Assembly (NCBI GenBank): GCA_016192135.1
Contig: JACPUR010000008.1
Location: forward strand, 1-18,139
Source of the DNA: Candidatus Tectomicrobia bacterium
Lineage (GTDB): Bacteria > UBA8248
Direction: 5' to 3'
Length of the DNA: 18,139 bases
The notes below the pieces were generated by a model. The model saw only the letters and a list, made by a program, of their open reading frames with translations, was not told where the DNA came from and did no database searches. The position numbers and the translations under genes were made by a program. Below are positions 1 through 16,587 of the stretch, in pieces (within the stretch, counting starts at the first letter, position 1; every line of letters begins with the position of its first letter).

Positions 1-209
1 ATGCCTTCCTCCCCGAGCTTGCCCGCCCGGGAGAAGGCCGTCAGCTGCTGCTTGCAGTAGGGTCACCAGTGGCCCCGGTAGAAGAGCACCACCCCCCAGC
101 CGCCCTTGAGGTCGCCGGGGAGGGTGATCTTCCCCCCGCCCGCCTTGGCGATCTCCAGGGCCGGAAAGGCGTCCCCCGAGTCCAGCATCCGGTCCGTCAT
201 TCTCGGCAT
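1..209 (-). CDS. Peroxiredoxin-like (AhpC/TSA-type) protein, putative selenoprotein, 3' end cut by window edge
   Basis: This is a thiol-dependent redox enzyme of the peroxiredoxin-like group whose active site normally reads FYRGHWCPYC. The reading frame starts at ATG 209-207, with a GGAGG Shine-Dalgarno at 218-222, 8 nt away. It runs through the core VVLFYRGHW and meets TGA at 65-63, then continues in the same frame to the window edge as PYCKQQLTAFSRAGKLGEEG with no further stop. The TGA is codon 49, exactly the first cysteine of the CxxC motif, giving U49-P-Y-C52. Sec in place of the peroxidatic or CxxC cysteine is established for several Prx- and thioredoxin-fold families. An inverted repeat downstream could be the bacterial SECIS. 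The alternatives are a real nonsense mutation or a sequencing error (TGC to TGA). The family call is strong; Sec decoding is inferred, since no sel genes are in the window. Confidence 0.82.
3..38 (-). promoter_or_regulatory. Candidate bacterial SECIS hairpin downstream of the in-frame TGA
   Basis: In the mRNA sense, a hairpin begins 24 nt after the TGA. The outer stem pairs GCCUUC with GAAGGC (33-38 with 3-8), and an inner UCCC/GGGA stem follows past a one-base bulge. The remaining 15 nt can fold further (GGGC with GCUC) to leave an apical loop GGGCAA starting with G, about 38 nt after the TGA. Bacterial SECIS elements lie within the coding region just after the UGA and usually present a G near the start of a small apical loop. 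The fit is reasonable but was not tested by folding or covariation. Confidence 0.45.
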
Positions 210-270
210 CGGAAATTCCTCCAGAGAAAAAACCGCACGCACGCCCGATTTTCGAATGGCCATCTCGATT

Positions 271-13790: not shown

Positions 13791-14705
13791 CTACCGGATC
13801 GCCTGAACTTTGCGGATGAAGGCCTTGCCCTCTTCCGAGCCGGCGCCCTCGGCCGGATCGGGCCGCTGGCTCTCGAAGGCCCGCTGATTCGGCTCGACGA
13901 TGGTGACCCCCTGCTTCTTCAGCGCCTCGATGGCGCGCGTCTCGGCCTCGTAGGTCTGGGCGCTGCAGCGGTCGGCCATCCCGCGCGCCCAGGCTACGAG
14001 GCTTTGGCGCTCCTTCGGGGCGAGGCCGTCCCACACGTCGTTCGACACGGCGATGGCCAGGGCCTGGTGCTGGATCTCGATCCGGTTGAAATAGGGCGCG
14101 GCGTCCGCGAGACCCAGCCGGACGGCGTGGATGGGCGTCGCGAGCACGGCGTCCACCAATCCGCTCTTGAGGGCGCCGCCCATGCGGTTGAGGGGAACCA
14201 TCACGCGGTACGTCTTCCATGCTTTGAGGTCAGAGCCGCCGCTGCCCAGCTTCAGGCCCCCCATGTCGCGCGGCTCGCGGAGGGGCTTCTTCGACATCGG
14301 ATAGGTGGTCCCCGCGTAGGCGAGGGCGAGCGGGCGGAGGCCGGGGAACTTGGCCCCCTCCTCCTCGAAGAGGGGACTCCGCGCGAACGCCCGGAAGTGG
14401 GCGAGGTCCCGGAAGATGAAGGGGCGGGCGATCTCGCCCAGCTTCGTCTGCCCGAGCCGGAAAAAGCCGGCCAGGGCAATCGCCAGGGTCCGGCCCTCGG
14501 TCTGGGCCTTCGCCAGCACGCCGTTGGAGAGCAGCCCCTGGTACAGGGGGTCGGGCTCCAGGCGGAAGGGCCCCTCCTTGGCCCCGGCCAGGAGCCGGCC
14601 GCACTGGGCGATCTCATCCATCTTGGGGAAGCCCAGCCGCAGGGCGGGCTGGGCGTGGGCGGCCGCGGCCAGGAGAACCGCCGCGAGCAGGATCAACCTC
14701 CGCAT
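13791..14705 (-). CDS. Divergent TRAP-type (DctP-like) periplasmic solute-binding protein, paralog 3
   Basis: A periplasmic binding protein of the TRAP DctP family, 304 aa. The signal peptide is residues 1-18 (cleavage around AHA-QP). Family traits are RPFIFRDLAHFRAFARSPLFEE (93-114), PLREPRDMGGLKL (141-153), LKSGLVDAVLATPIHAV and the C-terminal helix LAPKERQSLVAWARGMADRC. The arginine that usually follows GLKL/I and salt-bridges the ligand carboxylate is Gly154 here, so a typical organic acid ligand is doubtful. Cys35 and Cys247 match cysteines in both paralogs and may form a disulfide. The start ATG 14705 has GGGGAG just upstream, overlapping the stop of the preceding gene. No DctQ or DctM membrane subunit is in the window. 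Confidence 0.8.
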   Translation of the reverse strand: MRRLILLAAVLLAAAAHAQPALRLGFPKMDEIAQCGRLLAGAKEGPFRLEPDPLYQGLLSNGVLAKAQTEGRTLAIALAGFFRLGQTKLGEIARPFIFRDLAHFRAFARSPLFEEEGAKFPGLRPLALAYAGTTYPMSKKPLREPRDMGGLKLGSGGSDLKAWKTYRVMVPLNRMGGALKSGLVDAVLATPIHAVRLGLADAAPYFNRIEIQHQALAIAVSNDVWDGLAPKERQSLVAWARGMADRCSAQTYEAETRAIEALKKQGVTIVEPNQRAFESQRPDPAEGAGSEEGKAFIRKVQAIR

Positions 14706-14715
14706 CGTGTCTCCC

Positions 14716-15633
14716 CTACCGGATCGCCTGAATCCTGCGGATGAAGGCCTTGCCTTCCTCGGATTTCATGCCCCCCGTGGGATCAGGTCTCTGGCTCTCG
14801 AAGGCTTGCCAGTGGGGTTCGATAATCTGGACCCCCTGCTTTTTCAACGTTTCAATGGCCCGTTTTTCAGCTTCGAAGATCCGGGCGCTGCATTGGTCCG
14901 CCATCCGCTTCGCCCAGGCGGAGAGGGCCCCGCGCTGGGAGGGATTCAGGCCTTGCCAGCCCGGCTCGTTGACCGTAAAAACAAAGGCGCGGAGACTAAT
15001 CGCAACCAGATTGAAAAAAGGCGCGGCATCCGAAAGACCATCCCGCACGGCTTCGATGGGGGTGAGGACCGCCGCATCGATTTGTCCGCTCTTCAAGGGG
15101 CCTCCGGCCCGTGCCTTCGCCGATGCCCACCCCTGATCCCGATCATACTTGTCCTCTATTTTCAAACCGCCCATCTCCTTCGGCTCCCGGATGGGCTTCC
15201 TCGACATGACATAGGCGGTTCCCCGGTAGGCGAGGGCGATGGGCCGGACCCCTCTGGCCTTCCCCGCCTCCTCTTCAAAGAGGGCGCTTCTCGAGAACGC
15301 CCGGAAGTGGGCCAAATCCCGGAAAACGAAGGAACGGCCGATTTCGGATAGCGCCGGCGCACCGTCCACGAGCGGACCTGGCGGAGAAATTCGCAGGGCG
15401 GGCCCCACCCTTTTAAACCCTCCATCCGTCATGCGATCAAGTAAGGAAGCAAACGGATCCATTCGAAAATCGACGGGAGCGCCTTCCGCCGATTCCAGCA
15501 GCTTACCGCATTGGATGGATTCCTCCTCATTCACGTCGAAAAGGATCTTCCAGGGGGGCTCGGCCGCTTGGGAAACACCTGCCCAGACGGTCAAGCCCAC
15601 GGCAAACAAAACCGCACGAAAGCTGGGGTACAT
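14716..15633 (-). CDS. Divergent TRAP-type (DctP-like) periplasmic solute-binding protein, paralog 2
   Basis: Second of three tandem paralogs, 305 aa, with a signal peptide ending near VSQA-AEPP. It is closest to the downstream copy: GRSFVFRDLAHFRAFSRSALFEEE, PIREPKEMGGLKI, LKSGQIDAAVLTPIEAVRDGLSDAAPFFN, and a nearly identical C-terminus (EEGKAFIRRIQAIR against EEGKAFIRKVQAIR), so a recent duplication is likely. The ligand arginine position is Glu160, a charge reversal. The region after it (DKYDRDQGWASAKARAGG) is shortened against the family. Cys42 and Cys248 form the conserved pair. The ribosome site GGAGGGG overlaps the stop codon of the previous gene. Confidence 0.8.
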   Translation of the reverse strand: MYPSFRAVLFAVGLTVWAGVSQAAEPPWKILFDVNEEESIQCGKLLESAEGAPVDFRMDPFASLLDRMTDGGFKRVGPALRISPPGPLVDGAPALSEIGRSFVFRDLAHFRAFSRSALFEEEAGKARGVRPIALAYRGTAYVMSRKPIREPKEMGGLKIEDKYDRDQGWASAKARAGGPLKSGQIDAAVLTPIEAVRDGLSDAAPFFNLVAISLRAFVFTVNEPGWQGLNPSQRGALSAWAKRMADQCSARIFEAEKRAIETLKKQGVQIIEPHWQAFESQRPDPTGGMKSEEGKAFIRRIQAIR

Positions 15634-15642
15634 CGTCCCCTC

Positions 15643-16587
15643 CTACTTCAACGCCTGAAGCTCGTTCCACGTCCCGGCCGTCCAGCCAGGGCCTCCCTTG
15701 GGGGCGGGGAGCCTGGCCCTGACCTTGGCCGCGTCGAAGGGAAAGACGCGCACCCCCTTCGACTCCAGCTCCTTCAGCGCCCGACTCTCGGCGTCGTAGT
15801 TGGCGCGGCTGCAAGCCTCCGCCGCCTTGGAAATCCACATGCCCACCTCCTTCCGCGTTTCGGGTGGAAGGGCGCTCCAGGCCTTGGACTGGACCGAGAA
15901 GAGGACCGTCTCGGTGACGAAGCCGGTCAGGTACAGGTTCCGGGCGGCTTCAGGCCATTTCAGGGAGGAGATCAGCGTGGGCAGCGTTTCGGCGGCATCC
16001 ACCACGGATCGGTCGAGCGCGGGCTTCACCTCGGCCAGGGGAAGCGATACGGCCTTGGCGCCCAAGGCAGGGAAAAGCGTCTTGGAAAACGACCGGACGC
16101 GCATCCCCTTGAAATCCTCCAGCGAGGCGATCGGCTTCTTGGACAAGAGGGCCTGCTGGCCGGCGTAGGCGGCGGCGACGGGGAAGATCCCATCCCGCTT
16201 GGCCTGGCCGGCGGCCATCACCCGGAAGAGGCGGCTGCGGGCGAAGCTCCGGAAGTGAACGGGGTCGCGGAAGGCGAGGGGCTCGGCCAGCATCCGGAAA
16301 GATCCATCTCGGGCGATGGAGAGGCCGATGGAGGTTTCTCCGGCTTGCAAGCGCCGCAAGTATTCCCAGACCGTGGGCGCCGGAGGGTCTTTTAGATAGC
16401 CGCGGATTTTCGTGGAGGGTAGGGAGTCCCCGAGGGCTTGCAGACAGGCTTCCACCTCGCCCAGACGCTGCGGGTAAATGGAAATCCGGATCGGAGCGAA
16501 AGGCTGCGCACCCCGCGCCTCCGAAAGAGCGAAAAGCGCCATCAAGGCCGCCGCCCAGGCACAACAACCCTTCACCGCCCGGCTCAT
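15643..16587 (-). CDS. TRAP-type (DctP-like) periplasmic solute-binding protein, paralog 1
   Basis: First of the three paralogs in transcription order and the most family-like, 314 aa. A signal peptide with two cysteines (GCCAWAAALMALFA) ends near ARGA-QPF. Motifs include EPLAFRDPVHFRSFARSRLF, LEDFKGMRVRSFSKTLFPALGAKAVSLPLAEVKPAL and VVDAAETLPTLI. These follow the standard DctP order, with Arg165 at the carboxylate-binding position. Cys48 and Cys259 match the pair in the other copies. The C-terminus (WNELQALK) parallels the QAIR ends of the paralogs. The Shine-Dalgarno (AGGG, about 12 nt from ATG 16587) is weaker than in the neighbours. It begins 12 nt after the large low-complexity gene. Confidence 0.82.
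   Translation of the reverse strand: MSRAVKGCCAWAAALMALFALSEARGAQPFAPIRISIYPQRLGEVEACLQALGDSLPSTKIRGYLKDPPAPTVWEYLRRLQAGETSIGLSIARDGSFRMLAEPLAFRDPVHFRSFARSRLFRVMAAGQAKRDGIFPVAAAYAGQQALLSKKPIASLEDFKGMRVRSFSKTLFPALGAKAVSLPLAEVKPALDRSVVDAAETLPTLISSLKWPEAARNLYLTGFVTETVLFSVQSKAWSALPPETRKEVGMWISKAAEACSRANYDAESRALKELESKGVRVFPFDAAKVRARLPAPKGGPGWTAGTWNELQALK

Follow-up and report, generated by a model that had tools for sequence, protein, structure and literature searches.

A predicted peroxiredoxin-like selenoprotein gene of the UxxC type, truncated at a contig end of a Candidatus Tectomicrobia bacterium

The locus and its break at the contig end

The window, meaning the whole stretch of DNA that was analysed, is the complete contig C8 with a length of 18,139 bases, and its start is an end of that contig. 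On the minus strand, positions 209-1 translate to MPRMTDRMLDSGDAFPALEIAKAGGGKITLPGDLKGGWGVVLFYRGHW-U-PYCKQQLTAFSRAGKLGEEG, with U denoting an in-frame TGA at 65-63, which is residue 49. In its context (...LFYRGHW-TGA-PYCKQQL...), the TGA stands where a WCPYC motif has its first Cys, and it is followed by 20 open codons up to the contig edge. The initial annotation had placed a TGA on the first Cys of a CxxC site at exactly this position, and both its coordinates and the translation agree with the present reading. The features of the locus are as follows.

1-141, no strand assigned: same bases as at the start of contig C31, the k-mer overlap at the break in the duplicated gene (comparison of C8 and C31)
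1-209, minus strand: 5′ part, 69 codons, of a predicted Prx-like selenoprotein gene (gene 1, UxxC type; translation, PF00578 match and same-genus homologue)
8-36, minus strand: candidate SECIS hairpin behind the UGA, 11 bp, with the apical loop GGGCAA at 24-19 (folding)
54-56, minus strand: TGC, second Cys of UxxC, at the peroxidatic position of peroxiredoxins (profile alignment to solved peroxiredoxins)
63-65, minus strand: in-frame TGA, read as selenocysteine, residue 49, position 1 of the CxxC site (translation and codons of homologues)
207-209, minus strand: ATG, probable start codon (MPRM start kept in relatives)
218-222, minus strand: GGAGG, ribosome-binding sequence ahead of the ATG (read from the sequence)

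The open frame behind the TGA had been described as family-like, and this is borne out by a PF00578 (AhpC-TSA) match of the 69-aa fragment, which has an E value of 3e-10 and extends to residue 63, that is, beyond the TGA. The match scores 40.4 bits for the fragment and 67.9 bits for a full same-genus homologue, at a cut-off of 26. That homologue (L044:827-1324) is a full-length protein of 166 aa with 91% identity over the window part, and the window gene would be expected to continue past the contig end to a full length of approximately 165 aa. A decay of the frame beyond the window, which the initial annotation had considered, does not occur; full-length relatives reach about 165 aa. From the comparison of sequences, TGA 65-63 would almost certainly be a selenocysteine codon in a peroxiredoxin-like enzyme.

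The position of the break is accounted for by a duplication. The starts of C8 and C31 share exactly 141 identical bases, as do the reverse-complemented end of C5 and the start of C28, and these overlaps would be the trace of a de Bruijn assembler with k = 141 at both sides of a repeat. The 5′ part of gene 1 is found on C8 and C31, and its last approximately 45 codons lie on C5 and C28; therefore, two near-identical copies of gene 1 are present, the common middle of which is absent from the assembly. The truncation of gene 1 is an assembly effect only. In the same-genus genome G001, a LivK-like gene is followed by gene 1 and then by a second, related gene, termed gene 2 (locus L072), and by synteny the arrangement C31-(middle)-C5 would be the counterpart of this locus. 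The neighbours of the window copy are a cation efflux gene, a cupin gene, and two Band_7 genes resembling HflK and HflC, all of which also flank gene 1 in other genera. Since C31-C5 is matched to the G001 locus and the C8 neighbours flank gene 1 elsewhere, C8 would, by elimination, be physically joined to C28, which thus probably carries the 3′ end of the window gene.

Two further observations were made. In genome G002 (L043), the gene-1 copy is likewise cut off by a contig end, immediately behind the position of the TGA; perhaps gene 1 is duplicated there, too, and the contig is broken for that reason. Elsewhere in the window, at 13791-16587, three consecutive look-alike genes are located on the minus strand, the first and third of which, the two that were scanned, match PF03480 DctP.

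Conservation of the TGA and the selenocysteine machinery

The TGA of gene 1 is no chance occurrence, as it recurs on C31, in the second copy, and in a C5 paralogue. This paralogue, gene 2 (C5:13218-13733, corresponding to L007:3219-3734, minus strand), has a complete frame from start to stop containing two TGAs nine bases apart, which form the UxxU motif ..YRSHW-U-PY-U-LVQL... Among the other genomes of the same family, 16 of 17 gave a match, each with two neighbouring copies. Gene 1 is of the UxxC type in all 15 of these genomes in which the site is readable, the G002 copy being left out of the count because its contig ends just after the TGA position, while gene 2 is either UxxC or UxxU. Every copy of gene 1 or gene 2 within the family that reaches the site has TGA there. 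An alignment with Cys homologues, as proposed in the initial annotation, yielded only TGA or a Cys codon at the site: 57 homologous loci in named genomes comprise 33 with TGA (UxxC; 13 of them from same-family genomes counted again and 20 from outside that family), 24 with TGC or TGT (CxxC), and none with any other codon. The protein frame after the TGA is kept over more than 110 residues in 15 same-family genomes and in distant phyla. In the protein tree, Sec and Cys forms are interleaved, and nine changes are needed to explain the labels UxxC, CxxC, and UxxU. Most of the wider family bears a Nitrospinota/Nitrospinae label in the named genome collection, where two 'Candidatus Tectomicrobia' MAGs appear to correspond to the two same-genus genomes.

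The presence of sel genes, which had been named as a check on the selenocysteine reading, is confirmed in most parts. Both selA (540 bits) and selB (389 bits) score over cut-off and are located approximately 1 kb apart on C15, and a tRNA-Sec with the anticodon tca (74.8 bits, over cut-off) is encoded on C28. The part that did not hold for this assembly is selD, for which the profile search found no gene. The top match, C13:54341-55048 with 83.5 bits, was rejected, as it looks like thiL and adjoins thiE. In both same-genus genomes, selD is found over cut-off, each time with an internal TGA, and selD itself is therefore a probable selenoprotein there. The absence of selD is taken to be a gap in the assembly, which is 96.8% complete.

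Further in-frame TGAs were encountered in the genome. On the minus strand of C28, a deiodinase-like gene (L038:222-1037; PF00837, 67.7 bits) has one in the context EFGAIT-U-PPF and would probably encode a further selenoprotein. Another Prx-like gene, on the plus strand of C3 at approximately 12.9-13.1 kb (L041, 900-2400), has one in FYRGHF-U-GHC.

Taking these lines together, it is very probable that positions 209-1 of the minus strand hold a selenoprotein gene up to its codon 69, truncated by assembly only. The UGA at 65-63 would be decoded by the bacterial SelA/SelB/tRNA-Sec route, assisted by a stem-loop that follows closely in the mRNA, and the product would be a protein of approximately 165 aa with a Prx fold and a U-P-Y-C redox pair.

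Three other explanations of the TGA were tested and rejected, based on conservation, on independent copies, and on TGA stops elsewhere. A genuine stop at the TGA, with nothing beyond a 48-aa product or a pseudogene, would accord with the ordinary use of TGA as a stop in this genome (six of the 17 window genes), but is highly improbable given a post-TGA frame conserved over more than 110 residues and a site that is always TGA or Cys. A sequencing or assembly error with TGC or TGT as the true codon might be suspected from the closeness of the site to a contig end. However, that end is separately explained by the break at the 141-base repeat, and the identical TGA is found on both C8 and C31, in the paralogue of C5, and in other species that were assembled independently; because independent copies and genomes share it, a read error is ruled out, and the chance left to this explanation is minimal. 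An in-frame TGA inside a conserved gene would also be expected if TGA had been reassigned throughout the genome, to Trp or Gly for instance, instead of being recoded as Sec. This is improbable in the extreme, considering that TGA terminates other genes of the window, that the TGA of gene 1 aligns with Cys only, and that tRNA-Sec (tca), selA, and selB are present in the genome. Selenocysteine insertion at UGA 65-63 would thus be the preferred reading. Speaking against it are the missing selD of this assembly, the absent middle of the gene, and the candidate hairpin of gene 1, which is placed at the limit of the spacing range and lacks two-sided covariation among close relatives.

Hairpins downstream of the UGA codons

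For bacterial SECIS elements, a stem of 4-16 bp, a loop of 3-9 nt with a G within the first two loop places, a distance of 16-37 nt from the UGA, and an MFE of at most -7.5 kcal/mol have been published as limits (PMC13188914). The candidate hairpin of the window gene (-17.5 kcal/mol, z -3.2) lies within these limits with regard to stem, loop, and energy. Its spacing from the UGA is 37 or 38 nt, according to how the closing C-G pair is treated, with the published range ending at 37. In a reduced form of eight pairs, 90% of the cells are paired among the gene-1 relatives, without two-sided changes. Alternative placements of the gene-1 stem at nt 15-29 and at nt 9-21, with numbering from the first UGA base, gave no covariation, and an Rfam search with E values up to 1 returned no match to a SECIS family.

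Of 17 copies of gene 2, 16 retain a hairpin of 7 bp (UUCUCCC-GGGC-GGGAGAA). Its six codons show zero synonymous change in 15 of 16 copies, against averages of 0.45-0.48 for other conserved codons up- and downstream. In the C5 paralogue, the loop GGGC has a spacing of 34 nt to the first UGA and of 25 nt to the second one, in agreement with the SECIS limits. A different hairpin, likewise within these limits, is found in distant Sec homologues (GUCAGC-AGUUG-GCUGAC, with the loop AGUUG 16 nt after the UGA). Two-sided changes occur there at three of the six pairs, and the covariation score was reached by none of 500 shuffles, a value to be read with the caveat that kinship among sequences can by itself give scores above such shuffles; sliding of the partners also abolished the signal. 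The five core pairs of this hairpin are complete (5/5) in all 15 Sec loci, compared with a mean of 1.9/5 in 18 Cys loci; no hairpin of the SECIS type follows the site in Cys homologues.

Fold, predicted chemistry, and relation to known systems

A structure model of the full-length same-genus homologue, with Cys in place of Sec, has a Prx fold (pLDDT 93), and the 50 solved structures that match it best are peroxiredoxins or thiol peroxidases related to them. Profile alignments place the TGA position on the Thr of the PxxxTxxC motif and the second Cys on the peroxidatic Cys; a Ser is found where solved peroxiredoxins have the Arg in front of their FIID strand. The classical features of peroxiredoxins, PxxxTxxC and the catalytic Arg, are therefore absent here, and with Sec at the Thr position and Ser at that of Arg, the protein is neither a classical peroxiredoxin nor a Sec-peroxiredoxin of the TxxU type. 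The description of the TGA as occupying the catalytic Cys of a peroxiredoxin-like protein consequently needs to be modified: it stands in so far as Sec takes the place of the first Cys of a thioredoxin-like CxxC site, but the peroxidatic position of peroxiredoxins is that of the second Cys, with Sec at that of Thr.

Chemically, a selenol-thiol pair would most likely alternate with a Sec-Cys selenenylsulfide. The product would be, with somewhat better than even chances, a thiol:disulfide oxidoreductase. An alternative that concerns the chemistry only, leaving the selenocysteine reading in place, is a Prx-type thiol-dependent peroxidase in which the second Cys would be peroxidatic and would be resolved by Sec. 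The whole-chain fold, which is that of a peroxiredoxin, and the alignment of the second Cys with the peroxidatic Cys speak for such an enzyme, whereas the replacement of the Thr of PxxxTxxC by Sec, the Ser opposite the Arg, and the additional profile matches to CxxC proteins, ResA among them, speak against it, so that a peroxidase would be a tentative possibility.

Prx-like thiol:disulfide oxidoreductases with a PF00578 domain and a UxxC or UxxU motif are an already known selenoprotein family (reference record WP_010940744.1; PMC13188914, Table 1; PMC9312934), and a 'Prx-like protein' with UXXC has been described from the Sargasso Sea (PMC1088965). The window gene is a further, well-supported member of this kind and constitutes no new phenomenon; the assignment was made by PF00578, the TGA at position 1 of CxxC, and the pairs of Sec and Cys homologues. 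Shared with the known family are the PF00578 domain, the thioredoxin-like UxxC instead of the TxxU of Sec-peroxiredoxins, the distant homology to Prx, the Sec/Cys homologue pairs, and the presence of one or two Sec residues. What differs here is the occurrence of a gene pair side by side, the first UxxC and the second either UxxC or UxxU, which is conserved in one family labelled Tectomicrobia/Nitrospinota, and the duplication of gene 1 in its own genome. A limited literature search found no description of the neighbouring UxxC-UxxU arrangement or of the duplication, and none pairing 'Nitrospinota' with 'selenoprotein'.

Other related systems are more remote. Sec-peroxiredoxin TxxU (PrxU, NF040737) has the Prx fold in common with the window gene, but its Sec occupies the peroxidatic position, while that of the window gene is located three residues earlier; the same-genus homologue scores 23 bits against NF040737, the cut-off being 270. 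SelL, in which UxxU is known, is represented by the profile of SelL-related redox proteins (NF040769), which are similarly redoxin-like with a CxxC-type site. At a cut-off of 120, the C5 paralogue scores 20 bits and a distant homologue (L059) 28 bits with this profile, and the same-genus homologue of the window gene gives no match to it. Thiol:disulfide oxidoreductases of the ResA/TlpA type share the CxxC site and profile similarity; in distinction from these, the overall fold of the window-gene protein is nearer to Prx, and its N-terminus appears to have no evident signal peptide or membrane anchor.

Summarizing, the window holds a gene that would escape both standard gene calling and short-read assembly, with an active-site residue recoded from UGA and a contig end broken by a repeat. 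With it, the Tectomicrobia/Nitrospinota-labelled lineage would join the users of Prx-like selenoproteins. For the neighbouring pair of genes in this bacterial family, there is an even chance that a two-selenoprotein redox module is formed, in which the one invariant SECIS of gene 2 would serve both UGAs and give rise to a diselenide-type UxxU. The UxxU paralogue would offer a natural test case of one SECIS acting on two close UGA codons.
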